Assembly (NCBI RefSeq): GCF_022965805.1
Contig: NC_133117.1
Span: 11,866,183-11,930,182, forward strand
DNA: 64,000 nucleotides
Direction of reading: 5' to 3'
Origin: Primulina eburnea
Taxonomy: Eukaryota > Streptophyta > Magnoliopsida > Lamiales > Gesneriaceae
The position numbers and the translations under genes are program-made. Under the pieces are notes generated by a model. It saw nothing but the letters and a program-made list of their open reading frames with translations, did no database searches and had not been told where the DNA came from. Positions within the stretch are counted from its first letter, which is position 1. Each line of letters opens with the position of its first letter. Positions 12,585-64,000 of the stretch are shown here, in pieces.

Positions 12585-12586
12585 AG

Positions 12587-12598
12587 TGGTATCAGGGC
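12587..12598 (+). other. Copia-1 primer-binding site (one mismatch)
   Basis: TGGTATCAGGGC lies two bases after the LTR. It differs by one base from the tRNA-Met-type TGGTATCAGAGC that copia-4 keeps, so priming may be weakened. Confidence 0.8.
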
Positions 12599-12644
12599 AG
12601 TTGAATCTTGTTCTTGAATACTTCTGATCTATAAATCTTCTAGC

Positions 12645-14607: not shown

Positions 14608-17600
14608 ATATGGGTACCAAATCATATTATGTGTGTGCTTGCAGGTAACAGGTACATATAAAAATTCAATATGGTATTTGGACAGCGGTTGCTCACGACA
14701 AATGACAGGAGATGCAAGTATGTTATCTCAACTGACCAAATATAGTGGTCCAAACATCAGTTTCAGAGATAATTCCAAAGGTAAAACCGTGGGTAAGGGT
14801 AAGCTTATCCATGGTAACTTTACTATTAAAGATGTTTTATTAGTAGAGAATCTGAAGTATAACTTGATTAGCATCTGTCAGTTATGCGACAATGGATTCT
14901 CGGTACAATAAGATAAAAACTCATGCTCAGTTAAAACATCAACTGATGAAATCATACTAACTGGCAAACGATGTGGAAACACATATAAAGTCAGTTGGAA
15001 TGAACAGCCTCATGCACCAGTCTACTTTATTGCTTCAAAATCATCTCAAAACTGGTTGTGGCATAAAAGGTTAAATCATTTAAACTTTAAATCCATTGCT
15101 TATCTGAGTAAACATGAACTTGTAACTGGTTTTCCCAAAATAAATTTTTCAAAAGAAAAACTTTTCTCAGCATGTCAGTATGCAAAACAAGTACGATCTT
15201 CTTTCAAAAACAAGGGCTGTAAATCTTCATCCCGATGCTTAGAACTATTGCACATAGATCTCTTCGGTCCAATACCAGTCATGAGCTTAGGGGGAATAAA
15301 ATACACCTTGGTGGTCGTAGATGATTTTTCAAGATTTGCTTGGGTTATCTTTCTCAAATCCAAAGACCATACAGCTGCACAACTGATTTAACTCTTTAAA
15401 AGACTTTTAAATGAAAAATCAGTTGGGATTGATCGAATCAGATCTGATCGAGGAACTGAATTCATCAATCAAACACTTTCAGGCTTTCTAGAAAATGCTG
15501 GAATCAAGCATGAGCTCTCAGCAGCAAGAACTCCTCAGCAAAACGGTGTAGCTGAGAGAAAAAATCGAACCCTTAAAGAAGCTGCTAGAACAATGCTTGC
15601 TGATTCTGGTATTTCTCAAAGATTTTGGGTAGAGGCAGTAAACACTGCATGTTATACTCAGAACAGATCAATGATTAATAAGAATCATATGAAAACACCA
15701 TATGAGATCTGGCATGGAAGAAAAAGTATAATCACTTATTTCAAAATATTCGGCTGTAGATGTTTTATTCATGATAATGGTAAAAATTACTTAAAAGCAT
15801 TCGATGCCAAATCTGCAGAAAGAATATTCCTTCGATATTCATCAGTTAGTATAGCTTATAGAGTCTTTAATAAGAAAACTTTAAATGTTGAAGAATCTGC
15901 GCATGTTGATTTTGATGAAACTGTACTAACTGATAAGCCAACTGATCAAGTTGAGCTAGCTGATCGATTTACAGATATCGGTTTGGAAGATGATGACAAA
16001 GATGAAAGTCATAATAATCAAAACATCTTTCAAACACCAGAACCAGAGATATTAGATCAATTAAATGAGCAGGAAGTCAATGCTGACAATCAGTTATTAA
16101 AGCACACTGATAACATTCAAATACCAGCTGACGAGGCATCAACTGAAGCTGAAAACTGCATTCAGTTACCAAATGAAGAAGTTGCTGATGCAACAAATGC
16201 AGAGTACAGATGGAGAAAATCACATCCACCACAACTGGTAATAGGAAATCCATCTGATCCAGTAAGAACTCGCAATCAAATGTTAAATTTATTTATTCAT
16301 TCAGCCTTTGTCTCACAAATGGAACCAAAGAAAACTGATGAAGCTCTTGCTGATCCAAACTGGGTAAATGCTATGCAAGAAGAGCTGAATCAGTTCACTC
16401 ACAATAACTTCTGGAACTTAGTTCCAAGACCAACTTCAAAAACCATTATAGGTACAAAATGGGTGTACATGAATAAACTAAACGAGGACGGTTCAATTAT
16501 ACGCAACAAAGCAAGACTAGTAGCACAAGGATATAGGAAAGAAGAAGGAATTGACTACGATGAGACGTATGCTCCAGTTGAAAGATTAGAAGCAATCAGA
16601 ATATTTATTGCTTATGCATCTCACAAAAACTTCAAAGTTTACCAGATGGATGTGAAGAGTGCATTCCTAAACGGTCAGTTACAAGAAGAAGTATATGTTG
16701 AACAACCTCCAGGTTTTGTAAATCACAAACTTCCTGATCATGTATACTATTTGAACAAAGCATTATATGGTCTTAAACAAGCTCCCAGGGCTTGGTACGA
16801 AACTCTTTCAAAATTACTGATCATGACTTTACAGTCGGATCAGTTGATAAGACCTTGTTCAAATTTACTAAAAATAATCATATTCTATTAGTTCAAATTT
16901 ATGTTGATGATATAATATTTGGGTCAACTAACCCCAAATTGTGCGAAAAGTTTGCTAAGTTAATGCAGGACAAGTTTGAAATGAGCATGATGGGTGAACT
17001 GACATTTTTTCTTGTACTGCAAGTGAAGCAACTGGAAACTGGTATATTCATTAGTCAAACAAAATATAAAAAGGAGTTGCTAAAGAAATTTGGTATGGAA
17101 TCATGCTCAGCTGCAACTACTCCCATGAGCTCATCAGTTAAACTAGATACTGACGAAGGGGGAATATCAGTAGAGGCGACATTATATAGAGGATTAATAG
17201 GTTCATTGTTGTACCTAACAGCCAGTCGACCTGATATTGTTTTTGATGTCTGTATGTGTGCCAGATTTCAAGCAAATCCTAAGCAATCACATTTCTCAGC
17301 TGCTAAAAGAATTCTGAGATATCTTAAGGACACGCAAAATGTTGGGCTATGGTATTCCAAAGACTCCACCTTCAATTTAGTTGGATATTCAGACGCAGAT
17401 TATGCAGGATGTAAGCTTGATCGCAAAAGTACAAGTGGATCTTGTCAGTTCTTAGGAGACAGACTGATCTCTTGGTTCAGCAAGAAGCAGACATCCATAG
17501 CTACCTCAAGAACAGAAGCAGAATAGCTTGCTGCTGGTAGCTGTTGTGCACAACTGATCTGGATTCAGCAACAACTGAAGGATTATGGAGTAACGTCAAC

Positions 17601-17843
17601 TGAATCGCCCATATTTTGTGATAATACCAGCACAATTGCTATCACTTATAATCCAGTTCTTCACTCAAGGACCAAGCATATAGATGTCAGGCATCACTTC
17701 ATTAGGGATCATGCGTTAAAGAAGGATATTCGACTAGAATATATTTTAACTGAACAGCAAGCAGCTGACATCTTCACAAAACCATTACCCGAGGCTAAGT
17801 TTTCTTACTTTCGAAATATTCTTGGTTTAATTGATTTATCTTA
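14594..17843 (+). pseudogene. Copia-1 pol (PR-INT-RT-RNase H), at least four disabling changes
   Basis: Protease begins after the TTGCAG at 14639-14644 (IWYLDSGCSRQMTG near 14670). The GAG-pre-integrase zinc segment (LWHKRLNHLNF) is near 15055 and the integrase core near 15245 (HIDLFGPIPVMSLGG). RT spans about 16300-17200, with [14 protein letters not shown] near 16640 and YVDDIIFGS near 16900. RNase H has GYSDADYAGC near 17385 and TKHIDVRHHFIRD near 17675. Breaks: TAA 14909-14911, TAA 15389-15391, a frameshift near 16815, and TAG 17524-17526 (Tyr codon in copia-4). The stop of pol is TAG 17841-17843. Confidence 0.9.
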
Positions 17844-18012
17844 GAAATTATTAGTAATATTGCTTCACTAACAGAATTATTTGAAGAAAATAAGAACACA
17901 ACAAATTGAAAATAACACTTCATTAAGAATACCAACGTTCCCATTTTACAGAAGATATCATGGAATCAACTGAATCTAGCCACACCCTAACCCAATCATT
18001 TAATTCATAAAT

Positions 18013-18345
18013 TCAAACTCTAGAAAATGCCCTAGATTTCGAAATCTTATCAACAACATGCCACTCCTTCCATAGCATCGCCTCCAAAAGACATTTGTCT
18101 TCAACCAAATGCCTAACATGCCTAACTTCAAAACATTCAAGGTATTTCAGTGATCTTGCCTCCTGAGCACGAGTAGGAATAGCACTACTGTCACTCACCC
18201 TCTTCAACTCATGAATCTTTTCCCATTTTGACATCACCTTCTAAAAAACATATATCTCCATCTTTCTCTTGATATCTTTTAAACGAGGGGTTGACTGCTC
18301 AGTAACATGAACATGAGTGCTGCTGCATGCATCAGAATCAGACAT
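18013..18345 (-). pseudogene. Copia-1 antisense ORF A2 (diverged duplicate of A1), one internal stop
   Basis: The minus strand reads from an ATG at 18345 (MSDSDACSSTHVHVTEQ) to a stop at 18013, with a TAG near 18241. Downstream of that stop, 18237-18013 is open for about 74 codons. It aligns end to end with A1: the same MSD start, W-E-x3-EL near residue 40, an ML-x2-E segment, and a C-terminal I-x-x-S. A TATA box (minus-strand CTATAAATAAG, about 18395-18405) lies 59 nt upstream of the ATG, as in the other members. I infer a tandem duplicate of the antisense gene that has since decayed. The product is unknown. Confidence 0.6.
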
Positions 18346-18394
18346 ATTGAAATATTTTTTAACTGATATTGCATCACATTTTTATCACTATCAT

Positions 18395-18405
18395 CTTATT
18401 TATAG
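18395..18405 (-). promoter_or_regulatory. TATA box for antisense ORF A2
   Basis: Minus-strand CTATAAATAAG, 59 nt upstream of the A2 ATG at 18345. The upstream text (CAGCTTCTCCAACATC) resembles the sequence before the A1 TATA box, so promoter and ORF were probably duplicated together. Confidence 0.5.
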
Positions 18406-18658
18406 GAAAATGATGTTGGAGAAGCTGAAGAGTCTCGAGTCAATCAAAGCGTCTTTCACATTTACCAAGGACTTTAAGTTATCAGTTGTTCATTGTCAAC
18501 TGACACCAGTTTGAATTCTATTAATAGTTGTTTAAATAGTCCCAGTTCATGATCAACTTATGACAGTTAGTCTCTCATCAATTCATTTGTTTACATATCA
18601 CAACTGATGAAATATATCATTTGCAGAAAACCCGAGTTAAAACCAGATAAATATTTCA

Positions 18659-19057
18659 TTACTTATAAATGTTGGTCTGGATTACATCATCATACTTCTC
18701 CTCCACAACAATTATCCAAAATTTCAGCCAAACAGATAGAGAAGAAGAAGCAGTCATGAGAAAGCTGTGAGAATGAGCTATGCGCCTCAGGATCTTCAAT
18801 TCATTGCGGAGCATCAGCTGATACATATGACCGTCCTTGAAGACGTCCACCCACACAGCAATATTCAAGTGCTTTCGCACTTGATTCAGTTCTATCACCA
18901 ATTCAGGAGTGGTGGCCTCCCCAGAGTTGTATAAGAGCTCAAGCTCCTGCAATCGCTCCCAGTAATGCAGACTTTCATAGAAGACTTCGTCTTCTATCTC
19001 AGCCTTCCTGGCCTCCACAGAAAAGGGAGAAAGACTTGAGTCACCCTTATCAGACAT
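18659..19057 (-). CDS. Copia-1 antisense ORF A1, 132 codons, unknown protein
   Basis: An intact minus-strand ORF between pol and the sense accessory ORF. I do not recognise a family. It is mostly alpha-helical in character: an N-terminal SPFSVEARKAEIEDEVFY segment, then YWERLQELELLYNSGE, then VFKDGHMYQLMLRNELKILR. No signal peptide or clear membrane segment is visible. Copia-4 has the homologue at 59431-59808, about half identical by eye, with the same start, near-equal length and the same place and orientation. Conservation of frame across the two copies argues for a real protein. A TATA box lies 62 nt upstream of the ATG. Confidence 0.7.
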   Translation of the reverse strand: MSDKGDSSLSPFSVEARKAEIEDEVFYESLHYWERLQELELLYNSGEATTPELVIELNQVRKHLNIAVWVDVFKDGHMYQLMLRNELKILRRIAHSHSFLMTASSSLSVWLKFWIIVVEEKYDDVIQTNIYK

Positions 19058-19109
19058 TTTTTTATCTTGAATATTTTGGATGATCTGTCTAAAACTAATT
19101 GAGCTATTT

Positions 19110-19120
19110 CTATTTATAGC
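19110..19120 (-). promoter_or_regulatory. TATA box for antisense ORF A1 (copia-1)
   Basis: Minus-strand GCTATAAATAG at about 19110-19120, 62 nt upstream of the ATG at 19057. The equivalent in copia-4 is at 59862-59872. A transcript would start about 30 nt further in and have a very short leader. Confidence 0.55.
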
Positions 19121-19390
19121 AGAATATCAAGAAAGCTGAAGAGTCGTCAACGTTTCAGCAAAACCAATAACCTCTCTGACTCTTAAAATTATTTTATAGC
19201 ACTACTTTAATTATTATATGCACCAATCTAGGGGGAATGTCAGTTTTTAAAGAAGTTAACTGAGAAGACAATCGTTTGTGAATTCTCAACTGACTTGAAT
19301 CAGTTTCCCAACTGATCGTTCAGTTTGAAAATTTTACAAATCTTCTCACATAAGTTAACCAAGTAAAAACTTATTATATTCCAAATCAAA

Positions 19391-19648
19391 TGACGTGGCT
19401 AAATTTTTATGACGTGGCATATTTTAAAACCGCTCATTATTATATACACACGATTACAGCACACGTACACACATTTTTATTCAAAATTTTTCCCGGGCTG
19501 ACACGTGTCCAGAATTTGAACAGTCACGAACAAAAGCATTTTGCCCGCTTCACTTCAGTTCTATTCTTCACAATTACAATCAGTTTCTAAGAGTATACAA
19601 ATTTCAGAACTTATTCTCTTCAATTTGCAGATCACTACACTTTCCGAA
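19391..19648 (+). promoter_or_regulatory. Putative internal promoter of the copia-1 sense accessory ORF
   Basis: Contains TGACGTGG twice (19391 and 19410), a TATA-like TATATACAC near 19441, CACGTACAC near 19462, and a G-box palindrome, GACACGTGTC, around 19500-19509. The G-box is 148 nt before the ATG. Copia-4 keeps the same motifs in the same order, with the G-box 145 nt before its ATG. A TTGCAG at 19625-19630, 18 nt before the ATG, could also serve as a 3' splice site for a subgenomic RNA. bZIP-type binding is inferred from motif identity only. Confidence 0.5.
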
Positions 19649-22372
19649 ATGGCAAACCAGCACCCAGCCCATATTTTGAATGCGATGGTCATCGATTTTA
19701 ACTCGGTTCTATCGATTCAAGAAGCAGATGTTAAGAATGTATTTCTAAAGCTTCAGTCGGCAGGTCTCAGGATGTTCTTAGGACAATCTTCTCAGAAGAT
19801 ATACCTCAAGGAGGTCAATGAACTCTATCGGAAGGGATTTATCACTGCTAATGACACTATCTCTGTGACTATCAATGATCAGTTGCTACTCCTTTCTGAA
19901 GAAGCTTTCGGAGAAATCTTCTCTTTGCCAACTGATGGTTATGTCAGCTTTTCTGAAGTAAAAACTCAGGACATTGAAGAAATGCAGTCTCGATTATCTG
20001 CTGATGGACGGAAAATCAAGGTTTCCGATCCAAAGAAGGAACTGAAACCAGAAATTCAGTTGTTAGCTGATATCGTGGCAAAGGGAATATTAGCAAAAGC
20101 CGGTTCTTATGCTGCTCTTACACTCGAAAAATTCCAGGTGATGACCATAATCATGGGTGAAAAGAAAGCAAATTGGAGATATATTCTTTTTAACATCTTG
20201 AAGAATATTCTCAAGTCATCCAAACAGTCATAAAGCTTTGCCATCCAAATCAGTTATCTGTTAAAATTGAAGGGTTTGGTAGCTGAAAATGCTGAAACAT
20301 CATCAAAATTCAAGGTCTTTACTGCCAAAAACACCTTGCCATCAAAAACCAAACTAGAGGTTGAGCCATCACCATTCAAGAAGGCCAAAACAGCAAAAAG
20401 GAAACTGATTCTCAGTGAATCAGATTCAGAGAAAACTCCTTCCCCTAAGCTTGTCAAGAGACCAAGGACTCAAAGAATCAAACCAATAACAACAGTGGAA
20501 GTCATTCCACCTGAGAAAATTATTCAATCAGCTGCTCAACAGCCCATTCAGGCTATCCCTTTGCAAGTAGTCTCACCTGATGATTCAGTTACCAAAGCAA
20601 AGACACCAGCTAAGGTAAGAGCTCCCTTGACTCTTGTAAATCGCCCTACCATCTTGCCTAGAGCCATACCTAAAGGTGTAATATTAAGGGAACCAGTGCA
20701 CTCCACACATTCTGGAATGGATCTTCCTCACATTCTCTCAACTGACAAAGGAAAAGGCAAGCTGGTTGAAGAACCCCGGCCATCCAATGTCATTCAAACA
20801 CACATTGACCTAGTTTGGGAATAGGTCAATGCATTTGCCACATCACAATTAAAATCTTTTGATTGTTGGAAAAGCTTCAGAATAGAAATCTTTGCCAAAG
20901 AACTGAAGCATAGATCTCAACTGAAAAAGTTCATCAAGCTAGAAGCGATTGTGATGAAAGTAGTCAAAGCTGCTACAATTCCACAGGCATTAGAAAGGCA
21001 GAAATATTTCTTTGATCAGATTCGCGTCAAAAAGCTAACAAGAATGGTAGCAAAGCTGAAGTCCAACTACAATCCCACAAGTCCAGCTGCATACAATGAT
21101 AGAGCTGTGTTAACTCAACTGGACACAGATCTTAGTAGTCTGCAGAGTGAAATCAGATTTTGGGAATAAGATCAGGAACTAGTTCTTCATGAAAAACCCC
21201 CCAACTCAAATACTGAAAAAGATTTATCCTCCTCTCCACAAAAAGAACCATCTCCACAACAGGCAACTGAAAAGCCAGTTCAGGGAATACCTCAATCCTC
21301 TCAGACAGAACATCAGCTATATTCTGAAGCAGAACTATCCTTGGCAAACATTGATGAAATCATTCAAGCCGTTACCTTGGAAGCTCAGCTAGAGAAAATA
21401 CAGTATGACTCAGTTACCCATTCAGGTGAACAACCAGAGCAAGACATTAAGATATCATATGAAGCATCAGCTGAGTCACTTATTGCTGAAAAATTTATAT
21501 CTGCTCAAACTGAAGATCAAACTGAAGTGCCAAACCAAAATTCAGAAAAAGAAATACCTGATTCGGAAAAAGCTCAAACTGAAGCACCAGTTCAGCCAGA
21601 AAGTTCTGCTGAACAAGATATTCAAACTGATGAACAAGCAAAACCCTCAAAACAAGAAACTGCTGAACATGTGGAAGGTCAGTTGCTCACTGAATCAAAG
21701 AAGAAAGAACAAAGTTCAGTTAATTCTCCACAGGAGGCCCCTATGTATGAACCATCCATCTCCATCATTCAGCCAGACAGTCCATTTCTTGATCAAAACC
21801 AACGTTCATCATCTCAAATTCAAGAAAACATTCCAGCTCAACCTATGGCTGGAACAATGGAAACTAATCGAGCATTAGTTCTTTTTGGACAAACATCGAA
21901 GCATTCAGAAACGCTCAGTCAGCGACCTCCAATTCAATCCACAGAAATGGATGTTGTTCTTGAAGAAATCCAGAACATACAGTACAATATGCAGCAGATG
22001 CTCGCTGAAATCAAGAGAATTCTATTAGAACAACTGTCTCATACTGTCAAATTAGATTCTTCGACTGAATTTGACTCGGCAAAACTAAACGCTCTTCAAG
22101 CCAACATGGACTCTCTTAGCAGAACTGTGAATGAAATAAAGAAGGGGCTAGTTAACTCACTCTTTACAACTCAGGATGTAATCAGTCAGAGAGTTGAGCG
22201 ACTGGAAACCTCTGTTTCAAATCAAATAGAATTGCTACAGACCTCCCTCACAACTGTTGCCACAAGTATCTCATCAGGTGTAAAACTTCTTTTCATTGAC
22301 GTTCGAAAGTTATCAGACAAAATAGAGTTGTTTGACAAAAAGGGGGAAGAACAGCAGCTGAAGAAGAATTAA
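19649..22372 (+). pseudogene. Copia-1 sense accessory ORF 3' of pol, broken
   Basis: ATG at 19649 (MANQHPAHILNAMVIDF). The N-terminal domain is open to 20233 and holds LSADGRKIKVSDPKKE. After a frameshift come a basic, nuclear-localisation-like segment near 20380-20480 (KKAKTAKRK, KRPRTQRIK) and LPHILSTDKGKGKL near 20725, then TAG at 20822. Next is a Lys-rich segment to a TAA at 21167-21169. The last part, open from 21341, is Gln/Glu/Ser/Thr-rich and then a long C-terminal coiled coil ending DKKGEEQQLKKN. It sits where env-like ORFs occur in SIRE elements, but I see no signal peptide or transmembrane helix. Its layout recalls the ill-defined plant transposon ORFs, not a glycoprotein. Confidence 0.75.
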
Positions 22373-22504
22373 TCAGATTATTAAAATCAACTGATATTAT
22401 ATTCTCAGATTTTATGTTATCTACAAGGAATCCAGTTATTTTATGATTCAGTTGCGTAAACTATTATCTACAAAGAGCTCAGTTATTCGATCTTAAATCA
22501 CTTG

Positions 22505-22566
22505 GTTTTGTCAAACACCATAAAGGGAGAAATTGTTGGAAACTATATTCTGGAGTTTGACAAAAC
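22505..22566 (+). other. Copia-1 polypurine tract inside a 12-bp inverted repeat
   Basis: The polypurine tract AAAGGGAGAAAT (22522-22533) abuts the LTR start at 22534. GTTTTGTCAAAC (22505-22516) and its exact reverse complement GTTTGACAAAAC (22555-22566) bracket the junction. Confidence 0.75.
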
Positions 22567-23505
22567 ATGAATCAATCGATTAACAAAATATGAATCAACT
22601 GATACGCGCAAGAAAATTCGGCAACTGAACTTATCAACTGAAATCAGCTGATACAATGATACAAAGTAAACTGATCAGTTGGAACTGATCAGTTAAAACA
22701 TTCAGCCGAATGCCTTAAAGTCTCTCAACTGAAGATGTCTCGGGAAAGAACAAAGAAGACATAACAGATTACAAGAGCGCCGCACAACAACCAAGACTAC
22801 TTAAAACAAAGCGTTCCGGACAAAGCAATTAAGACGCCGAATTACAATAAATGAAGCAAACAATATCGAAGGAATAATCAAGTGGAAACCAACAGATACA
22901 AAGATCCAAATTTATCTCAAGATTACCGTTGGAAAAGAAGAGTATAAATATGGCAGAAGAAAAAGAAGAAGTAACGATACACCATTCAAAACTTGCTATT
23001 ACTCTATCAAAATCTCAGCTCACTCTTACTTGATTTATTCGTAGCAATCAAGGCTACAAGTTGAGCAAACTAGCACTCTGTAATATTTGTTAATTCAATA
23101 GTGCTAAGATCAGTTACGCACAGAGATCATTTTGTAATACTAAGAGTTTCAGTTTAGGCAGTGGGTAAGTCCTAACTGAAGTGGGTCTGTACAAGTGTTG
23201 TATTTGATCAAAGTCTTTTAGTGGAAATCCTATCCTTGTGATAGAAGGGGTGACGTAGGAGTAATTGAATTCTCCGAACATCCAGAAACAATCCTTGTGT
23301 ATTTTATTTCAGTTCTGTATTCTATCTGTCAGTCAGTTTACTTCCGCAACTACCTCAGTTTAACTGATTGATATTGACCAACAAGATTCCGAGAATCAGT
23401 TTGTTACCAAACTGAACTCAAAAATTCGAAAAGACCAATATTAATTGAAAGTGTTTATTCAACCCCCCCTTCTAAACACTCTTGACACGTCAATCGATCC
23501 TATCA
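22534..23505 (+). repeat. Copia-1 3' LTR
   Basis: 972 bp, TGTTGGAAAC to CCTATCA, followed by the TSD ATTAT (23506-23510). It has the same features as the 5' LTR, with a short seven-base C tract in place of the expanded one. Confidence 0.92.
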
Positions 23506-32245: not shown

Positions 32246-32314
32246 ATGCATTGAGATTTTGGGATTTAGAACTGTTCTTTTGGGTTTAATCTCTGGTAAC
32301 TTTTGTAGCGAGAG

Positions 32315-38219: not shown

Positions 38220-38224
38220 TATTA

Positions 38225-52999: not shown

Positions 53000-53952
53000 T
53001 GTTGGAAACGAAATTCCGGCGTTTGACAAAAGATTGACCAACTAATTCTAGCAACTGAATTGGACCAACTGATCGACCTAACTGAACACGTCATCGGTCA
53101 ACTGATCGCTTCAACTAAAGTATATTTCTTCGTCAACTGATCTTTACTAGCTGATCTCTCAGTTGTACACGTCATCAGTTGACAGCGACAACCGACATAT
53201 AGTACAGCCATCTGCAACTGGTAGTGGCTCGCCGCATTTCAGAAATGAACAGTGTACTATTGTCAGGATATATCGACGTGGCAATCAACGGTTAGAATAT
53301 TCAAATATCTTTAATGTTACCGTTGAAAGGGAAGCCTATAAATAGTCGAAGACAGCAGCTGAAGCAACATCGCATTCTTAGTTATCTTACTTGCTGTTAC
53401 GCTGCAAAAATATCCGCTCACACTCAGAAATCAAGCTCACGCTTATCAGTTTTATCAGTAGTATTCTAGACTACGTTCTTGAGCTTTCATAGCACATTGT
53501 AATAGATTGATAGAATTTCTAAATTGTGCTAAGATCAGTTACGATCTGTAAAAGTGTTGTATGCTAAGAGTTTCAGTATTGGCAAAGTGATAAGTCCAAA
53601 CTGAAGTGGGTCAGTACACTGATTTGTATTTGATCAAAGTCTTTTAGTAAAAATCCTATCTGCGTGATAGAAGGGGTGACGTAGGAGTTGTTCAAGTCTC
53701 CGAACATCCAGAAACAAATTGTGTTGTTATTACCTTCAGTTATTATTTTCAGTTAGATACTCTATCCTTCAGTCAGTTATTTTTTCCGCAACTGTTTATT
53801 CAGTTTAACTGATTGTTGTTGACCGAAAGAATATTTTTAGATTCAGTTTGTAATACAACTGAAATCAGTTTGTCGAAGAATTATTTTAATTGAGCAGTGT
53901 TTATTCAACCCCCCCTTCTAAACACTCTTCACCCGATTCACCGATCCTTTCA
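53000..53952 (+). repeat. Copia-4 5' LTR
   Basis: 953 bp, TGTTGGAAAC to CCTTTCA. The U3 segment 53052-53221 has eight AACTG/CAGTT motifs. The TATA box is TATAAATAG at 53337-53345. A short C tract, TTCAACCCCCC, near 53903 is shared with copia-1. Confidence 0.92.
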
Positions 53953-53954
53953 AG

Positions 53955-53966
53955 TGGTATCAGAGC
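53955..53966 (+). other. Copia-4 primer-binding site
   Basis: TGGTATCAGAGC two bases after the LTR, perfect tRNA-Met type. Confidence 0.87.
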
Positions 53967-54011
53967 AAGTCATATCCTTTCAAAAGAATATCTATACTCA
54001 AATTGTTCATT

Positions 54012-55934
54012 ATGTCTTCATTCAACAAGATCCCCATGTTCTCCAGAGAAGATTTTGACGATTGGAAGATCAGGATGCAGGCTCATCTAGCTGCACAGGA
54101 TGATGATATGTGGTACGTTATAACTGACGGACCCATGAAGATTTTGAAAGCAAACACAGCAGTTGCAATCACAGATGGGGCACCTCACCGTATTGAAAAG
54201 CCCAGAGATGAATGGACTGCCGAAGACAAGAGAAAAGCAAATTTGGATAATGTAGCAAAAGACATATTGTACAAAACACTGGACAAAGTGACGTTCAGTA
54301 AAATCAAGATGTGCAAAACAGCCAAAGAGATTTGGGATAAATTAATCCAGCTTTGCGAAGGCAGTGAACAAACCAAAGAAAACAAGCTATCTGTTGCTGT
54401 ACAAAAGTTCGATAACATCAGAATGAAAATTGGAGAAACGATGCATGAATATGATGAGAGAACCAGCTGCATCATCAACGAACTGAATGCACTTGGAAAG
54501 GTGTATACAAATAAAGAAGTAGCATTGAAGGTTATTAGAGGTCTTCCCAAAGAATGGGATGTGAAAACCATGGCTATGAGGGAGTCTAAAGATCTGAACA
54601 AAGTTGAACTCCATGACTTGTTTGCTGACTTAAAAGCATATGAGTTTGAACTGCAAACTCGAGAAAGAGAACCATCTACCCCAGCAGTAACTACTGCCCT
54701 AGTTGCTGTAAGATCAGAACCAACCGATTCAGTTGAGAAAGCCGCAGATCAATTAAGCAATGACGCCATGTCATTGTTCATCAGGAAATTCGGAAGATTC
54801 ATGAGGAAGAATCAAGGAAATTTTCAGAAGCAGTACCAAAGAAACAATCCCAGAGAAGAGTCCAATGCATGCTACAACTGTGGCAAACCTGGTCATTTTA
54901 TTGCTGACTGTCCAAAGCCTAAAAAGGATAGTCAAGCTTCGACTGAAAGAAAGAAGAAAGTGTATGAGCATAAGAGGAGATCTAAGGACGACAAGAAGCC
55001 TTACAGAAAGAAGCATGAAGTACTCCTAGCTGAGGATAGAAAAGCCAAATGGGCAGAGACTGACAGCGAAGAGTCAGAACCAGAAACCTCTTGTAGCTCT
55101 AGTGAAGATGAGGAAGAAGTGAAGTGCTTGATGGCTGATGATACAGAAGTTCATTCAAGCAGCCAACAGGTATTTGACTTCAGTTCAACTAATTTCACAA
55201 GAGAAGAACTTATTTCTACTCTTCATGACATGGTTAGTGAATATCAAAAGCTTGCCTTATCGTTTGAAAAGGTCAGAGTAGAGCAAACTGATCCCTCTAA
55301 CAATAAGACAACAACTGATGTATCAGTTGAAATGTTGAGTCTAAAAAGGGAGATTGCCGAACTCAATACTGAAAGGAGCAAGAATCAATTAATGATTCAA
55401 AAGTTAATGCTTGAAAATACAAAGCAAACTGAGCTCATTCAGGCTTGGAATAAATCATCTGTTGCATTGACTGATATACAGAACTCTCAGAAATCATTTA
55501 CTGATAAAACTGGCTTAGGGTTCAGTAACCAGGATGAAATACCCTCCAAAGATATTCAACCAAAACTGAATATGGACAAAGGGAAATATATTCACTTTGT
55601 CAAATCAGTTATGGTACAAGAACAAGTTGAGCCGAGTAAACTGATTGAACAGCCGACTCATAATATGAGCAAGGGCAAAAGATGTGGTATTGGTTATAGT
55701 CCAAGAGTTGTGACTGACTCACGAAGTCAGCCACCAAAATTTTTCAACAAAAACCATTCAAGTGGCTATTCAAATTACTATAACAGCAGACCAGTTCAGA
55801 AAAGATACTGGCTGAACAATCAGTCGAAAAAGGGCAAATCACATGTTGTATCTTCTACATACCATACATCACACACACACACATGTCGGGAAAGACAATT
55901 TGGAATACAGCAACTGGACAGTCAGTTATACTGA
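54012..55934 (+). CDS. Copia-4 gag, 640 codons, intact
   Basis: The first true ATG, at 54012, gives MSSFNKIPMFSREDFDDWKI; a TTG at 54003 is in frame but unlikely. Residues about 10-230 are the SIRE-type capsid domain (KENKLSVAVQKFDNIRM, LPKEWDVKTMAMRESKD). One zinc knuckle sits at about residues 289-302 (CYNCGKPGHFIADC, C-X2-C-X4-H-X4-C), followed by a Lys/Arg-rich, RNA-binding-type stretch. An acidic stretch (SEESEPETSCSSSEDEEE) and a coiled-coil region follow. It ends 45 bases before the FGPK-TAG (55979-55981) that ends the gag frame in copia-1 and copia-2, through a local frame change. Confidence 0.9.
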   Translation: MSSFNKIPMFSREDFDDWKIRMQAHLAAQDDDMWYVITDGPMKILKANTAVAITDGAPHRIEKPRDEWTAEDKRKANLDNVAKDILYKTLDKVTFSKIKMCKTAKEIWDKLIQLCEGSEQTKENKLSVAVQKFDNIRMKIGETMHEYDERTSCIINELNALGKVYTNKEVALKVIRGLPKEWDVKTMAMRESKDLNKVELHDLFADLKAYEFELQTREREPSTPAVTTALVAVRSEPTDSVEKAADQLSNDAMSLFIRKFGRFMRKNQGNFQKQYQRNNPREESNACYNCGKPGHFIADCPKPKKDSQASTERKKKVYEHKRRSKDDKKPYRKKHEVLLAEDRKAKWAETDSEESEPETSCSSSEDEEEVKCLMADDTEVHSSSQQVFDFSSTNFTREELISTLHDMVSEYQKLALSFEKVRVEQTDPSNNKTTTDVSVEMLSLKREIAELNTERSKNQLMIQKLMLENTKQTELIQAWNKSSVALTDIQNSQKSFTDKTGLGFSNQDEIPSKDIQPKLNMDKGKYIHFVKSVMVQEQVEPSKLIEQPTHNMSKGKRCGIGYSPRVVTDSRSQPPKFFNKNHSSGYSNYYNSRPVQKRYWLNNQSKKGKSHVVSSTYHTSHTHTCRERQFGIQQLDSQLY

Positions 55935-56013
55935 TCCAAGTTTGGATTTCTAAAGGACTAATCAACTTTGGACCCAAATAGAAAAGGGTACCACAATCTT
56001 ATCTTGTGTTTGA

Positions 56014-59000
56014 TTGCAGGTAATAGGTACAAGCATTGGATCTATATGGTATTTGGACAGTGGATGTTCACGCCACATGACTGGAGATTCAAATTTATTA
56101 TCTCAACTGACTAAGTACACTGGACCAAACATCAGTTTTGGAGATAACTCTAAAGGTAAAACTGTGGGTAAGGGTAAGTTTATTCATGGTAATTTCACCA
56201 TTAATGATGTTTTATTAGTTGAGAATCTCAAGTATAATCTGATCAGCATTAGTCAGTTATGCGATAATGGATTCTCAGTTCAGTTTGACAAACATTCTTG
56301 TTCAGTCAAAAACTTAACTGAAGAGATCATCCTAACTGGCAAAAGGTGTGGAAACACTTATAAAGTTAGTTGGAATGATCAACCTTATGCACCAGTATGT
56401 TTTATTGCCTCAAAATCTTCTAAAAACTGGTTGTGGCATAAGAGATTGAACCACCTAAATTTCAAATCTATTGCATATTTGAGTAACCACGATCTTGTTA
56501 CTGGATTGCCCAAAATGGATTTTATCAAAGATAAAATTTGCTCAGCATGTCAGTTTGGTAAACAAATCAAATCCTCTTTTAAGAACAAGGGTCGTAAATC
56601 TTCTTCCCGATGCTTAGAACTGTTACATATGGATCTATTTGGTCATATACCAGTCATGAGCTTAGGGGGAATGAAATATACCTTGGTGGTTGTAGACGAT
56701 TTTTCGATTCACTTGGGTTATATTTCTCAAGTCCAAAGACCAAACTGCTGCTCAACTGATTAAGCTTTTCAAAAGATTATTAAATGAAAAATCAGTTGGA
56801 ATTGATAGAATCAGGTCCGATCTAGGAACTGAATTTATCAATCAAATTCTTTCAAATTATTTAGAGAATACCGGAATCAAGCATGAGCTCTCAGCAGCCA
56901 AAACTCCTCAGCAAAATGGTGTAGCTGAAAGTTGAAATCGGACCCTCAAGGAGGCTGCTAGAACAATGCTTGCTGATTCCTCTATCTCTCAAAGGTTTTG
57001 GGCAGAGGCAGTGAACACTGCGTGTTATACTCAAAACAGATCAATGATTAATAAGAATCATATGAAAACACCTTATAAGATCTGGCATGGAAGAAAAAGT
57101 GTGGTTTCTTACTTCAAAATATTCGGCTGCAGATGTTTTATACTTGTCAATGGTAAAACCCATTTAACAGCCTTTTACGCTAAATCTGCAGAAGGAATAT
57201 TTCTTGGTTACTCTTCAGTAAGTAAAGCCTATAGAGTCTTCAACAAAAATACTTTGAATGTTGAAGAATCCATTCATGTTGTGTTTGATGAGTCTACACT
57301 AACTTCTAAGCCAACTGATACAGTTGAGCTAGCTGATAGATTTACAGATATAAGCTTAGACGATGATGATGATGAAGAAGATATCCATATTAACCAAAAC
57401 AATCTCCAAACACCTGAACCTGACATATTGGATCAATCAGCTGAATTGGAAGCAAATCTTGACAATCAGTTAGTGGAGCATACTAATGAGAATCAGTTTC
57501 CAACTGAATTAGCTCCAACTGAAACTGAAAACATTCAGTTGCCTACTGAGGAAATTGCTGATACAGAAGAAACACATTCTGAAATTAGATGGAAGAAGTC
57601 ACATCCTCCAGAATTAGTGATAGGTAATCCATCTGATCCGGTAAGAACAAGAAATCAAATGCTTAATTTATTTATACATACAGCTTTTGTGTCTCAACTG
57701 GAGCCAAAGAAAACTGATGAAGCTCTTGCCGATCCTAACTGGATAAATGCAATGCAAGAAGAGCTAAATCAGTTTATCCATAACAATGTCTGGAACTTAG
57801 TTCCAAGACCACTCTCAAAAACTGTGATAGGTACAAAGTGGGTATACAGGAACAAACTAAACAAAGATGGATCAGTTGTGCGCAATAAAGCAAGGTTGGT
57901 AGCACAAGGATATAGGCAAGAAGAAGAAATTGATTACGATGAGACTTATGCACCAGTTGCAAGACTGGAGGCAATCAGAATATTCCTAGCCTATGCCTCA
58001 TTCAAAAACTTCAAAGTCTACCAAATGGACGTAAAAAGTGCATTTCTGAATGGCCAGTTGCAGGAAGAAGTCTACGTTGAACAACCCCCAGGTTTTGTCA
58101 ATCATCACCTTCCTGATCATGTCTATCATTTGAACAAAGCCTTATACGGTCTTAAACAAGCTCCAAGAGCTTGGTACGAAACCCTTTCAAAATTTCTAAC
58201 TGATCATGACTTTTCAGTTGGATCAGTTGATAAGACATTGTTCAAATTTTCCAAGAATGATCATATCTTACTTGTTCTAATCTAAGTTGATGATATTATT
58301 TTTGGGTCAACTAACCTCAAATTATGTGAGAAGTTTTCCAAGTTAATGCAGGAGAAATTCGAGATGAGCATGATGGGTGAACTAACATTCTTCCTTGGTC
58401 TACAAGTGAAACAACTGGATTCAGGAACATTTATCAGTCAAACTAAATACACAAAGGAATTGCTGAAGAAATTTGGCATGGAATCATGTTCAGCTGCAAG
58501 CACTCCTATGAGCTCATCAGCTAAATTAGATACTGATCAAGGGGGAATGTCAGTTGAGACGACGCTTTACAGAGGTTTAATAGGTTCATTACTGTACCTA
58601 ACTGCTAGTCGTCCTGATATTGTGTTTGTTGTATGTATGTGTGCAAGATTTCAAGCTAATCCTAAACAATCACATTTTTCTGCTGCCAAACGTATCTTGA
58701 AATATCTTAAAGGTACGCAAAATGTTGGTTTATGGTACTCTAAAGATTCATCTTTCAATTTAGTTGGCTATTCAGATGCAGACTATGCAGGATGTAAGCT
58801 TGATCTAAAAAGTACAAGTGGATCATGTCAGTTTCTAGGAGACAGACTGATTTCTTGGTTCAGTAAGAAGCAAACATTCATAGCAACTTCCACAACTGAA
58901 GCAGAATATCTTGCTGCTGGAAGCTGCTGTGCTCAACTGCTCTGGATTCAGCAACAACTGAAAGATTATGGTGTTGAAGCAAAGGAATCGCCAATATTCT

Positions 59001-59227
59001 GTGACAACACGAGTACAATTGCTATTACATATAATCCAGTTCTTCACTCCAGGACTAAGCACATAGATGTTAGACATCACTTCATCAGAGATCATGCTTT
59101 AAAGAAGAACATCAGATTGGAATACGTATCAACTGAACAGCAAGCGACTGACATCTTCACCAAACCACTGGCTGAGACTAAGTTTTCTCATTTCCGCAAT
59201 ATACTTGGATTAATTGATTTATCCTAA
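56014..59227 (+). pseudogene. Copia-4 pol (PR-INT-RT-RNase H), three disabling changes
   Basis: Protease motif WYLDSGCSRHMTG near 56048. GAG-pre-integrase (LWHKRLNHLNF near 56430, CSACQFGKQ near 56540). The integrase core starts HMDLFG near 56625. RT includes [14 protein letters not shown] near 58020 and VDDIIFGS near 58286. RNase H has GYSDADYAGC near 58768 and TKHIDVRHHFIRD near 59055. Lesions: a two-base deletion near 56703, TGA at 56933-56935 in the integrase, and TAA at 58283-58285, which replaces the Tyr of the RT catalytic YVDD box. The 3' portion is open from 58286 to the stop at 59225-59227. Confidence 0.92.
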
Positions 59228-59430
59228 TTAATTATTATTGCTTGTAATTCATGTGTTAGCCTTACTGTCTTCTTACTAATTACTTAAATGAGTTGCTTAT
59301 TCTTATGAATTTTTAACTGATGTCAGTTAGCGTTTCAGTAGTTCTTGTGTTTGTGTCTCATACAGAACATTGCAAGCAGGAACAAAGGAGAACAACGATA
59401 AAACATAACCATTTTATTAATGAAAGTGGG

Positions 59431-59808
59431 TTACATTTTCATATTCTTTTTCTCCAAATCAGCTATCCACATACTCAACCAAGCAGCTAGTGCTGGAGAA
59501 GAGGTTTTGCAGAAACTGTGGGAGGAAGCGATGCGGTGGAGGATCTCCAGCTCCTTCCGAAGAAAGAGTTGATAGAGATGCCCATCATTGAAGACGTTCA
59601 CCCCTGCAGGAACATTCAAGAGCTCCCACACCTCTCTTAGTTGGGCCATCTGTTTGAAGGTGGTGACCTGTCCAGAGTAGTACCGGAACTCCAACTCCTG
59701 CAAATCCTCCCAGTAGGAAAGGCTTGAGTAAAAGACTTCGTCCTCTATGGCCTCCTTTCTGGTCTGCAGTGAAAACGGAGAGACGCTTGAGCTTCCAGCA
59801 CCGGCCAT
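59431..59808 (-). CDS. Copia-4 antisense ORF A1, 125 codons, unknown protein
   Basis: Intact minus-strand ORF, ATG at 59808, 204 bp beyond the end of pol. Homologous to copia-1 18659-19057: shared SPFS, EIEDEVFY/AIEDEVFY, YWE-x-LQELE, VFNDGHLYQL, LRKELEILHRIA and SHSF, with the same start position and almost the same length. No known domain is recognised; it looks like a small, mostly helical, soluble protein. Minus-strand CTATAAATAAG lies 64 nt upstream of the ATG. Being antisense to full-length element RNA, its transcript could also act on the sense RNA. That role is conjecture. Confidence 0.72.
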   Translation of the reverse strand: MAGAGSSSVSPFSLQTRKEAIEDEVFYSSLSYWEDLQELEFRYYSGQVTTFKQMAQLREVWELLNVPAGVNVFNDGHLYQLFLRKELEILHRIASSHSFCKTSSPALAAWLSMWIADLEKKNMKM

Positions 59809-59861
59809 TCTTCTTCTCTATGAAATTATTTGCTGAGATAGCTGTGACTAACCATCTTACT

Positions 59862-59872
59862 CTTATTTATAG
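59862..59872 (-). promoter_or_regulatory. TATA box for antisense ORF A1 (copia-4)
   Basis: Minus-strand CTATAAATAAG, 64 nt upstream of the ATG. Position and sequence match the boxes at 19110-19120 and 18395-18405. Confidence 0.55.
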
Positions 59873-60141
59873 GCCAAGATGAGGGAAATGAAAGGACACT
59901 TTTTTAAGTGACGATTACTCTACCAAGCACCAGGCTCTACTTTAATCATTTCTGTCTATTACCGTCATTTTTTTTTGCATTTATTAAGGAGGAATAATGG
60001 TCTAAGAGGTTAACTGAGAAGACAGTTGTTAGTGCATTTTCAACTGAAAGGACTTAGTTTTACTAACTGATCATTCAGTTGAATCCTTCACTAATCTTCT
60101 CATATAAGTTAACTAATTAAACTTATTTTATTCCAAATCAA

Positions 60142-60415
60142 TGACGTGACTGTCTGCTAAACTCATGATGAATTTCAGTCTATGACGTGGACTCAATTTT
60201 TACCGCTCAAATTGTATACACGCTTATAGCACACGTACACACTCTACTTTCTCAAAATTTCTACGGACTGACACGTGTCCAGATTTTGAATGGTCACGTA
60301 CATATGTACCATTACCCGCCTTGATTCAGTTTCACCTTACATTTATCCACAAACTTTTGAGAGCAAGAACTATTTCATCCTTCAAATTTTCTTTCAGGAA
60401 CTCAATCAGTTATCA
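60142..60415 (+). promoter_or_regulatory. Putative internal promoter of the copia-4 sense accessory ORF
   Basis: Motifs in the same order as in copia-1: TGACGTGAC near 60142, TGACGTGG near 60183, TATA-like GTATACAC near 60214, CACGTACAC near 60233, and G-box GACACGTGTC around 60270-60279, 145 nt before the ATG. CTTTCAG (60391-60397) could be a 3' splice site, parallel to TTGCAG in copia-1. The block may drive the accessory ORF or feed a bidirectional promoter with the antisense TATA box about 300 bp away. Confidence 0.5.
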
Positions 60416-63068
60416 ATGGCAACCCAAATTTCCGCTTTTATGCTGAATGCTATGGCCATTAATTTTGGATCCATCTTATCCTTCGGCGATGCTGAAGTCA
60501 AGAAGTTGTTTCAGAAACTCGAAGCTGCTGGACTCAAAACCTTTTAGGACAATCCTCGCAGGACATTTATCCGAAAGAACTTCAGGATTTCTACTCCACT
60601 GGGATGATTGATTCTGAAGGTAACATTATCTCTACTGTCAATGGTCAGTCGCTGACCATCTCTGAAGACTTTCTTGGGGATGTATTTTCTTTACCCTCTA
60701 ATGGTGTGGCACAACTTTCGGATGTTAAGGCATCTGATATTGAAGAGATGCAAACTCTTCTCTCTGCTGATGGACGGAAGATTAAAGTTTCTGATCCTAA
60801 GAAGGAACTGAAGCATGAAATTCAGTTGCTTGCTGATGTAGTTGCTAAGGGGCTTTTGGCAAAAGCTGGATCATTTGCTGCCCTCACCTTGGAAAATTTT
60901 CAAGCCATTTCTGCTATTATGGCTGACCGCAAACTTAACTGGAAGCACCTTATCTTTACCATTCTGAATAATATGTTTTATCCTCAAAACAGTCCAAAGG
61001 ATTTGCTGTTCAAATCAGTTATCTATTGAAAGTCAAGGGATTTGTGGCTGATGATTCTGAAAGGTCATCAAAATTTAAAGTGTTCAATGCAAAGAATACA
61101 ATGCCACCCAAAACCAAAATGGATATAACTCCTGGTCAGTTTGTGCAAATCAAACAGGAGATTGGGACTCAGTTAGCAGCTCCTAAATCAGTTAAGAAGG
61201 CCAAAACCTTGGGTCAACTGAAGGCCACCAAAAGAAAATTAGTGTTGAGTACATCTGAGTCAGAAAAGACTCCATCACCACAGATTACGAAGAAACCAAG
61301 AACCCACAGGGTTAAAACAACTTCGGAGGTCTCCATTCCCATTGACGCAATGATTTCTTCAACTGATCAGCAGCCTATAGAAGCAGTTCCTCTGCAGGTC
61401 ATTCCACAAGAAGCTTCAATTAGTACCACAAAGGAATCAGTTAGGATCAAAGCTCCTCTGATTCAGATATCTCGTCCTCCTGTTGTGGCACCTGCTAGAC
61501 CTAAAGGCATCAAATTTGTAGAGCAGGTGGAATCTACTCGAACAGGACTGGAAATTCCTCATCTTTTGAGTACTGATAAAGGGAAAGGAAAGTTGATTGC
61601 AGAGTCCAGACCCTCCAATCCAATTCAGACTCATATTGATCTTGTATGGGAGAAAGTTAACAGTTTTGCTGCCTCAAAAATTCAGTCCTATGATGCTTGG
61701 ACAGCTTACCGCACTGAAGTTTTCGCCAAGCAATTGAGAAAGAAATCTGAACTGAGCAAATTCATCAAGCTGGAGGCCTTTGTGCTCAGGACAGTCAAAG
61801 CTGCCTCGATTGCTCAAGCTATGGAGAGGAAAAGTTATCTGTTTGATCAGACAAGAGCGAAGAAGTTGGCTCAAATTGTTTCCAAGCTAAAGGCCAACTA
61901 CTTACCTACCAGTCCTACTGCCTACGCTGATCAAGCTGTAATCACTCAGCTCGACACTGATCTCATAGGACTGATATCCCAAATCAAGTTCTGGGAAATG
62001 GATCAAGAACTGGTTCTCTATCAAGAAAATTCTGATGATGATGACGAGGAAATATTGGAGGAAGCACCCTCTGAAAGAACAGAACCATCATCAGCCTTAG
62101 CTCTTGTTCCAACTGAAGAGCCAGCTCATGATAAGTCTCTTTCACCTACTGTTGAACAACAAATGTATACTGATGCTGAGCTTTCCCTCGCACACATCGA
62201 TGAAGTTATTCAGGCCGTTGTGGAAGAATCACAGATCAGTGCCCCCATTTCTGACAAAGTTGATCCATCTGCTGATCAAATCCATCCAGAAGCACTTATT
62301 TCTACCGAAGAACATGTTCAGTCAGATCCATCTACTGATCAAGTTATCTCAACTGATGTGCCAGTTGATTCTTCAATTCCTTCAACTGATGTGCCAGTCA
62401 ATTCCATTGATCACCCTTTAGAGGCACCAGTTTCTGCTGTGTCACCATCTGCTGAACCAAATCCTCCTTCACCACCTCTGGATCAAGGAGAAATTACTAC
62501 TGCTGATACTTCAGTTCGAGACGCTGCTGAACTAATCTCAACTGATCAAGCCTTGATAATTTCTGAACACACTACAAGTGAACCCAGCACTTCTCGACAA
62601 TCTCATCCTCCATCTTCCGCAGATTTTGATCTTATTTTTGAAGAGGTTCAAAATATGCAAGACAATATGAGTCAAATGATTTCTGCCATCTCGAAGATTC
62701 AAAATACTCAATTATCGCATACTCTGAAGTTGGACGATAATCAGAAATCGTTAAAAAGTCTGAAGGATATTAAATCTGATGTTTCCGCCCTTTCTTTCGC
62801 CGTCAACGACATTCAGAAAAATAGAGGAATTATTTCAAGTTTGACTGCCACTCAAAACTCTATTAACCTACGGGTCGACAGCATGGAGTCAATTATGTCA
62901 AGAAAAGTCGAACTGCTACAACTCTCTATGACTACTGCTATCGATAACATCTTAACCTCTGTTAAGCTCCTTTCTACTGATGTTGGGAAGATATCTCTCA
63001 AGATGGAACAGTTTGACAAAAAGGGGGAAGAAATAAAGGAGATCTTAGAGCAGCAGAAGAAACACTAA
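60416..63068 (+). pseudogene. Copia-4 sense accessory ORF, frameshifted, about 880 codons if continuous
   Basis: ATG at 60416 (MATQISAFMLNAMAINF). A one-base loss near 60543 (copia-1 reads MFLGQSSQ) shifts the frame, which is open again at 60604-61029. A second frame change near 61020 leads into 61026-63068, 680 codons and intact. Domains: an N-terminal globular part with LSADGRKIKVSDPKKELK; a basic nuclear-localisation-like segment (KKAKTLGQLKATKRK, KKPRTHRVK, about 61195-61315); LLSTDKGKGKLIAE; a helical segment; a Ser/Thr/Pro/Asp-rich segment (about 62030-62600); and a C-terminal coiled coil ending DKKGEEIKEILEQQKKH. No signal peptide or transmembrane helix, so it is unlikely to be an envelope glycoprotein. 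Function unknown. Confidence 0.75.
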
Positions 63069-63179
63069 TAGGCGCAATATCTATTGTATTTATTTTGAAG
63101 AAATAAGAATTCAGTTGATTCAGTTAACCACCATATTATTTTATCTACTTTGCATTCAGTCAAGTATCTTTCTCTATAG

Positions 63180-63239
63180 TTTTGTCAAACACCATAAAGG
63201 GGGAAATTGTTGGAAACGAAATTCCGGCGTTTGACAAAA
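63180..63239 (+). other. Copia-4 polypurine tract inside an 11-bp inverted repeat
   Basis: AAAGGGGGAAAT (63196-63207) abuts the LTR start at 63208. TTTTGTCAAAC (63180-63190) and GTTTGACAAAA (63229-63239) are exact reverse complements around it, as in copia-1. Confidence 0.75.
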
Positions 63240-64000
63240 GATTGACCAACTGATTCTAGCAACTGAATTGGACCAACTGATCGACGTAAATGCACACGTC
63301 ATCAGTCAACTGATCGCTTCAACTAAAGTATATTTCTTCGTCAACTGATCTTTACTAGCTGATCTCTCAGCTGTACACGTCATCAGTTGACAGCGACAAC
63401 CGACATATAGTACTAGCCATCTGCAACTGGTAGTGGCTCGCCGCATTTCAGAAATGAACAGTGTACTATTGTCAGGATATATCGACGTGGCAATCAACGG
63501 TTAGAATATTCAAATATCTTTAATGTTATCGTTGAAAGGGAAGCCTATAAATAGTCGAAGACAGCAGCTGAAGCAACATCGCATTCTTAGTTATCTTACT
63601 TGCTGTTACGCTGCAAAAATATCCGCTCACACTCAGAAATCAAGCTCACGCTTATCAGTTTTATCAGTAGTATTCTAGACTACGTTCTTGAGCTTTCATA
63701 GCACATTGTAATAGATTGATAGAATTTCTAAATTGTGCTAAGATCAGTTACGATCTGTAAAAGTGTTGTATGCTAAGAGTTTCAGTATTGGCAAAGTGAT
63801 AAGTCCAAACTGAAGTGGGTCAGTACACTGATTTGTATTTGATCAAAGTCTTTTAGTGAAAATCCTATCTGCGTGATAGAAGGGGTGACGTAGGAGTTGT
63901 TCAAGTCTCCGAACATCCAGAAACAAATTGTGTTGTTATTACCTTCAGTTATTATTTTCAGTTAGATACTCTATCCTTCAGTCAGTTAGTTTTTCCGCAA
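63208..64000 (+). repeat. Copia-4 3' LTR, cut by the window end
   Basis: First 793 bases of the LTR, matching 53000-53792. The TSD is beyond the window. Confidence 0.9.

Follow-up and report, generated by a model that had tools for sequence, protein, structure and literature searches.

Grande of maize is a Ty3/gypsy element, AtRE1 is a Ty1/copia element and the VANDAL elements are DNA transposons; each offers a point of comparison for the genes described here. Antisense genes placed after pol are established in plant Ty3/gypsy retrotransposons, one of them with its own promoter (PMC7264820). In maize, gene23 of Grande is an antisense accessory gene located between pol and the 3′ LTR, with a promoter upstream and a nuclear product (PMC7264820). 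The plant examples RIRE2, Retand and PvRetro13 are likewise gypsy, by text or by title (PMC7264820, and the available sections of PMC11963269 and PMC4093653). According to those sections, the antisense ORFs of Retand (TRP28/PF04195) occupy the region between pol and the 3′ LTR, are conserved across families and were mostly counted from 600 bp (PMC11963269), and ORF2 of common bean is antisense, SMC-like in some cases and 211-939 aa long (PMC4093653). Only extra ORFs with 250 codons or more were counted in a large survey, as its available text has it (PMC6317226); because of this cut-off, genes of 125-140 codons would have been invisible to it, and more antisense genes may hide in known elements. 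Antisense promoters have been named for AtRE1 and Mdoryco1-1, the latter a copia element by the title of its reference, so that antisense transcription in plant copia elements has been reported, but no conserved antisense protein gene was described for them (PMC7264820). In the VANDAL system, VANC21 recognises the word YAGTATTAY, which is dense in VANDAL21 according to the available sections of PMC5735166. A search of the open-licence PMC literature for an antisense protein gene in Ty1/copia or Sireviruses found none.

Here, a 64,000-nt stretch of the Primulina eburnea genome (hereafter the window) was analysed, in which the copia elements copia-1 and copia-4 carry small genes on the strand opposite to pol. 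These genes differ from gene23, whose product is reported as nuclear, in that their carriers are copia and not gypsy. By its review description (PMC7264820), gene23 nevertheless resembles them in being antisense and in lying in the region between pol and the 3′ LTR. This likeness, together with conservation across families, extends to the Retand ORFs and common-bean ORF2 as far as their available descriptions go; those are Ty3/gypsy and mostly longer, whereas ours gave no TRP28 match at the thresholds tested. As with the eORF-3′F of Sirevirus/SIRE elements, a sense env-like ORF is present in our elements, and the antisense gene is additional to it and on the opposite strand. As far as the open-licence literature shows, antisense genes are known in Ty3/gypsy, and an antisense protein family and a tandem pair of such genes in Ty1/copia are new. 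A tandem pair of small antisense genes in an apparent Sirevirus branch shows that this strategy is not confined to gypsy, having arisen or spread outside it.

The carrier elements

Copia-1 (11606..23505, plus strand) is complete: its LTRs are about 97% identical, and it has a 5-bp target duplication, ATTAT. In copia-4 (53000..64000, plus strand) the two LTRs agree at 98.7% over 793 nt; the 3′ LTR begins at 63208 and extends beyond the window. The gag-pol of copia-4 (54012..59227, plus strand) lies in several open pieces with a copia-type gag, zinc knuckle, GAG-pre-integrase and RVT_2; the matches to Retrotran_gag_2, gag_pre-integrs and RVT_2 exceed the Pfam cut-offs, which identifies the gag and pol as Ty1/copia. 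An env-like sense ORF after pol, often present in Sireviruses, was found in pieces in both elements, at 60417..63068 on the plus strand of copia-4 and from 19649 in copia-1. A weak match to Transposase_32 in one of the copia-4 pieces does not reach the curated cut-off.

In its available text, PMC2829016 describes the Sirevirus junction as a polypurine tract (PPT), AGGGGGAG, beginning 10 bp before the 3′ LTR, with AT/TG; a final-A variant is known for ToRTL1 and Tnd-1, and several identical PPTs, four on average, lie in the linker near the 3′ LTR. The PPT of copia-4 is this final-A variant, AGGGGGAA (63198..63205, plus strand), beginning exactly 10 bp ahead of the LTR at 63208, and AT/TG at the 3′ LTR completes a Sirevirus-type junction. 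The copia-1 tract differs by one base. Extra copies of the copia-4 PPT were found nearby (63022) and twice inside pol, which is fewer near the 3′ LTR than usual. Judged by these features, the lineage of both elements is likely Sirevirus-type Ty1/copia. Separately, CCCCCC occurs 13 times in copia-1 (11606-23505) against 0.9 expected, and may be related to the polyC-rich integrase signal of Sireviruses mentioned in the available text of PMC2829016.

Antisense gene 1 in the window

An intact 125-codon minus-strand ORF between pol and the accessory ORF of copia-4, reported in the initial annotation of this DNA, was found at 59431..59808, and its 132-codon homologue, also intact, lies at the same place in copia-1 (18659..19057, minus strand). 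We refer to both as gene 1. The motif CTATAAATA, a putative TATA box, was located where the annotation had placed it, 64 nt before the ATG in copia-4 (59864..59872, minus strand) and 62 nt before it in copia-1 (19111..19119, minus strand). A putative poly(A) signal, AATAAA, is situated just past the copia-4 stop (59413..59418, minus strand); in copia-1, AATAAA is absent from the 90 nt past the stop.

The two proteins, estimated by eye at about 50% identity, share 55% over 121 aligned residues (E ~1e-40, search within the window). Across the aligned stretch the antisense frame is stop-free, and the remaining five frames contain stops in both copies. Substitutions number 45/25/56 at codon positions 1/2/3 (125 codons), giving a dS of 1.26, a dN of 0.32 and a dN/dS of 0.26 (Nei-Gojobori). 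When neutral change to 34% difference was simulated without indels, an ATG followed by 120 open codons survived in 126 of 20000 runs.

The annotation had also described the flanking non-coding sequence as less alike than the gene. In 100-column blocks of the copia-1/copia-4 alignment, the four blocks spanning most of gene 1 have 60-69 matches and most flanking blocks 32-66, so the description holds for most of the flanks; it fails for one block, 79 of whose 95 columns match, which lies some 240-335 nt upstream of the gene 1 start. Between gene 1 and the env-like ORF (60049-60310 in copia-4, 19295-19520 in copia-1), this block is followed in both elements by TGACGTG and ACACGT/CACGTG-type words. 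ACACGT occurs 6 times in the linkers, 15-fold over the rest. Perhaps the env-like ORF has its promoter here, or the stretch is a shared control region.

Gene 1 across the genome

The genome was searched with the copia-4 gene 1 protein, and the best 150 of 4569 first-look candidates were scored. All 150 had E below 1e-48 and 129 were stop-free in the matched part, a share that is biased upwards because only the best matches were scored; the same applies to the 94/150 given for the second gene below. Fifty-five distinct loci were retained (44 flanked by 1.5-3 kb, ten short, plus copia-1) after removal of L002, L004, L006 and L008 as duplicates of L009-L012. The loci were chosen by presence of gene 1, so the counts cover carriers of gene 1.

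Gene 1 was antisense to pol in 44/44 flanked loci, the position of an antisense additional ORF (aORF-3R) in plant LTR retrotransposons, and in the window it is located before the 3′ LTR as well. An env-like ORF accompanied it in 41 of the 44, always antisense to gene 1 and at near-constant spacing; L013, L015 and L047 had no env-like match, and at L047 an RT match alone lay beside gene 1.

TATAAA was found 48-66 nt before the gene 1 start position in all 55 distinct loci, against a background of 0.67 per kb per strand in the window, and exact CTATAAATA in 48 of them. In a six-copy promoter alignment, in which L001 and L015 are 98% alike, the TATAAAT columns are invariant and many neighbours vary. 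The promoters of copia-1 and copia-4 align weakly outside the TATA box (34/1000 mononucleotide shuffles were as good). The ATG is kept in 51/55 loci, and an ATG with a frame of 118-140 codons in 46/55. Among these 46 intact loci, AATAAA occurs within 90 nt past the stop in 38 and is missing in eight, including copia-1. The conserved TATA box and frame and the mostly present AATAAA therefore make up the anatomy of a complete small Pol II gene in the pol-env linker.

Selection on gene 1

For the codon models, the 9/55 loci with no ATG or with a frame shorter or longer than 118-140 codons were excluded. Five copies chosen on the alignment, at 62-86% likeness, gave an omega of 0.32, and omega=1 was rejected (2dlnL 57.7). 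Six copies including the 98%-alike L001 and L015 gave an omega of 0.31 (2dlnL 63.3), and the same set minus L015 gave 0.32 (58.5). All 46 intact copies, close relatives included, gave 0.46 (2dlnL 59.4), a value probably raised by neutral changes in copies that died recently. Kappa was set to 2.0 for the omega=1 runs, and the likelihood was insensitive to it. Among families, dN/dS is thus clearly lower than the value near 1 that the initial annotation had set against its own proposal.

In comparisons of copia-1 with copia-4, the antisense dN/dS of 0.26 is close to that of the larger env-like piece (0.24); gag and pol are lower (gag 0.08, PR/INT 0.10, RT 0.12, RT-C/RNase H 0.05), as is the smaller env-like piece (0.12). 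Gene 1 is therefore conserved like other element proteins when measured against the larger env-like piece.

Full-length matches in the 44 loci were stop-free in 36/42 cases for gene 1, and in 30/38 and 33/41 for two pol pieces of equal length. Intactness of single copies was accordingly dropped as proof of selection, since the pol control behaves similarly; intact single copies show youth and not host-level use. The caution in the initial annotation, that young copies may stay open by chance, is borne out to this extent, single copies being no more intact than pol, but it does not reach the selection signal among families. Function is shown for gene 1 because the protein changes slowly across families, and not by the intactness of single copies.

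A second antisense gene

Between gene 1 and pol in copia-1 sits a further antisense gene, missed by the initial annotation. This gene 2 (17923..18345, minus strand), a tandem paralogue of gene 1, has 140 codons and is a pseudogene in this copy, with two in-frame stops, but many other copies in the genome are open. Its putative TATA box, again CTATAAATA (18397..18405, minus strand), starts 60 nt before the ATG. A profile of the gene 1 protein matched gene 2 in the window with an E of 8e-9, and hhalign aligned the two over 108 columns without gaps at a probability of 95.8%; protein identity is 23-27%. Scoring 150 of 4616 first-look candidates in a genome search for gene 2 gave 94 without an internal stop and 56 with one. 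A chance TATA as the explanation of the region was abandoned in view of the profile match and this 150-match search.

Six gene 2 loci, falling into three groups, were compared: the window copy bearing two stops and five open ones. TATAAA occurs at -58 to -60 in 6/6. The dN/dS of the eleven between-group pairs is 0.14-0.25 in ten and 0.35 in one, and third positions change most (e.g. 12/6/29); the four within-group pairs, with few changes, have values of 0.31-0.55. At locus L061 both antisense genes are open in tandem, with TATA at -54 and -59. Among the 150 listed matches per gene, both genes were found by eye on the same strand, with gene 2 downstream, in at least 21 places. A separate cluster at G000 C2:33790614-33801057 comprises four gene 2 copies in 10.5 kb, of which three lie at intervals of about 2 kb, each with two TAG stops; it is an amplified array.

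In copia-1, gene 1 and gene 2 have a promoter block in common that ends with the TATA box (0/1000 mononucleotide shuffles reach the score), and the gene 2 promoter also aligns with that of copia-4 gene 1 (4/1000 shuffles as good). Because of the shared block, gene and promoter were probably duplicated together. The duplication is probably the older event, predating the split of the two element types, since gene 1 and gene 2 differ more from each other than gene 1 does between types; copia-4, whose copy is without gene 2, would then have lost it.

Interpretation

Comparison of the copies establishes homology, a fixed position, a conserved TATA box, purifying selection on the protein and a likely duplication with promoter, all at the level of sequence. 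That the antisense ORF is a coding gene under selection is close to certain, and that it has its own minus-strand promoter is highly probable; for the two together we put the probability at about 0.87. The accessory protein with its own promoter that the initial annotation proposed for Ty1/copia has thus gained support from the conserved protein, the TATA box and the position, and further from the poly(A) signal of most copies and a dN/dS well below 1.

We propose that a Sirevirus-type Ty1/copia lineage of this Gesneriaceae plant carries a small and independent transcription unit, which is placed in the pol-env linker and runs antisense to both pol and the env-like ORF. A TATA box opens the unit and a single intronless ORF of 125-140 codons follows, with a poly(A) signal past the stop in most copies; were transcription to begin 30 nt below the TATA box, the leader would measure about 30 nt. 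One element type bears the unit twice, as diverged tandem paralogues. Transcription by Pol II would be independent of the LTR, and after translation the accessory protein would act in trans; it could be made even with the LTR promoter silent. The favoured candidate for the product is a small helical nuclear regulator that would act on element chromatin or transcription. This nuclear role is possible but doubtful, a guess, since searches for domains, folds and solved relatives found none, and anti-silencing, copy-number control and particle assembly are all candidate roles.

The AACTGA word

AACTGA/TCAGTT occurs 95 times in the 11,001 nt of copia-4 against 7.3 expected from base composition, and 110 times in copia-1 against 8.0, about 13 times over expectation in each. 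It is the top over-represented hexamer of copia-4, second to CCCCCC in copia-1, and first or second in ten other loci examined. Its orientations are about equal on both strands. Density per kb is 17-19 in the LTRs, 10-14 in most linker pieces, nearly 8 in gag-pol and 6-7 in the env-like ORF; one 81-nt linker piece has none. The antisense coding region is nearly free of it, with a mean of 0.05 per copy against 5.5 in the 600 nt upstream (44 loci).

Within sense ORFs the word exceeds synonymous-codon shuffles in gag (12 vs 4.1), PR-INT (8 vs 1.7), RT (13 vs 3.4) and env-like piece b (12 vs 4.5), 0/2000 shuffles being as high in each, and more weakly in RNase H (5 vs 1.4, P 0.006) and env-like piece a (3 vs 0.5, P 0.0045). 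With six of six ORFs above their shuffles, codon bias is disfavoured as the cause. In the two gypsy elements the density is 0.7 and 1.0 per kb, without excess in their polyproteins.

From copia-4 to copia-1, within blastn blocks lying no more than 900 nt from the main diagonal, AACTGA is kept at 39/63 aligned sites against 24% for all hexamers. This is the first rank among the 48 hexamers that have 15 aligned sites or more, AATCAG (60% of 20) and TCATCA (59% of 17) following close behind. By region it is kept at 7/9 sites in the LTR (all hexamers 142/392), 5/5 in the linker (116/775), 21/39 in gag-pol (1414/5109, binomial 5e-4) and 4/6 in the env-like ORF (108/1410). Strand-symmetric and conserved, the word points to a DNA-binding reader, belonging to the element or to the host. 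AACTG resembles MYB-type sites, and given this resemblance a host factor may be the reader.

A possible logic for such a word is that of VANC in VANDAL, an accessory protein paired with a short repeated DNA word, and AACTGA is dense as such a word should be. The antisense protein, with or without the env-like product, would then recognise AACTGA and counter methylation. The excess on both strands and over synonymous shuffles, the conservation and the lack of excess in the gypsy polyproteins all speak for this VANC-like anti-silencing, and an own promoter would fit early expression. However, nothing links the word to the antisense protein, the gene 1 products are acidic, the word nearly avoids the antisense coding region, and the host may supply the reader. 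VANC motifs, moreover, are a different word, occur mostly outside coding sequence, keep to one orientation and often form tandem repeats, according to the available text of PMC5735166, whereas AACTGA lies in both orientations and in coding sequence too. Taken together, we consider VANC-like anti-silencing unlikely.

A broader proposal, a shade less probable again, is a control module in which one or two antisense genes with their own promoters would be joined to AACTGA as an address marking element DNA. Its proteins would be acidic and mostly basic helical ones, and its address strand-symmetric and element-wide, coding regions included, serving for instance escape from silencing. To our knowledge no VANC-like addressing system has been described in an LTR retrotransposon, and the control module, if true, would be the first. 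The many copies and clear selection make the role of antisense element proteins testable, with AACTGA as a concrete ligand candidate.

As a minor observation, the top hexamer of an older copia fragment at 48804-51714 is GACTGA (9 vs 0.9 expected), which differs from AACTGA by a single base, as though the word had changed from one family to another.

Protein relatives and origin

Neither window gene 1 protein matched any Pfam family at E up to 1, PF04195 (TRP28) included, and neither gene 2 nor the gene 1 of L061 had a Pfam match up to E 5. Searches of the antisense proteins for a Pfam domain, a PDB entry or a fold relative found none. Structure prediction, at middling confidence, gives a Ser-rich tail followed by a helical part. 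The gene 1 product is acidic (pI 4.8-5.6, eight copies) and that of gene 2 mostly basic (pI 7.9-9.1, five copies); such a contrast would suit a pair of partners of which one is close to nucleic acid.

A search among 5.8 billion proteins, able to reach only relatives with short exact words in common, found P0001, P0003 and P0002 and nothing else. The first two are relatives on two short ENA contigs, which match the host genome at 93% and 98% and therefore derive from this or a near species; for the same reason they were dropped as a sign of deep conservation. Against Pfam up to E 5, P0001 gave an insignificant DCD_N match alone. P0002 is a Primulina eburnea gene model of 194 aa that begins with the gene 1 ORF and, judged by eye, continues into integrase-like sequence; the model probably reflects a nested insertion that was mistaken for a gene. 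Within the scope of these searches, homologues are confined to the host genome and the two ENA contigs.

These results bear on the origin of the unit. A host gene might have been captured at the DNA level together with its promoter and terminator, reversed, and now serve as an element gene; the unit does resemble a complete short plant gene, with its TATA box, ORF and mostly AATAAA. However, the protein search returned only the two ENA proteins and P0002, and 44/44 loci adjoin pol, so that we hold capture to be improbable. It is a hypothesis of origin, compatible with the reading of the ORF as a selected coding gene with its own promoter.

Remaining alternatives

The conserved feature might instead be an antisense RNA, a minus transcript of about 400-450 nt that would pair with the sense genomic RNA and tune copy number via dsRNA or siRNA, the frame being secondary. 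The sense genomic RNA must traverse the gene 1 region, the TATA box is conserved and AATAAA mostly so, and a dual role has been proposed for other antisense ORFs (PMC7264820). However, selection acts on amino acids (the omega of 0.32, and the excess of changes at third codon positions), and gene 2 belongs to the same protein family at an identity so low that mutual pairing would be lost. Because selection is at the protein level, RNA-only action is disfavoured, and we regard it as very unlikely.

A functionless ORF open by chance in young copies would suit the pol-like intactness of single copies and the 97-98.7% identity of the LTRs, but the rarity of open neutral simulations, the low omega, the conserved TATA box and the same signs in the paralogue gene 2 already disfavour it for the family as a whole and leave it a negligible chance.

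Other features of the window

A young Ty3/gypsy element occupies 30891-38220, with 1.3 kb repeats 99.8% identical and an open polyprotein of 1475 codons. A minus-strand ORF at 41833-42189 reads as homeodomain-leucine zipper-like by its motif and is probably part of a host gene.
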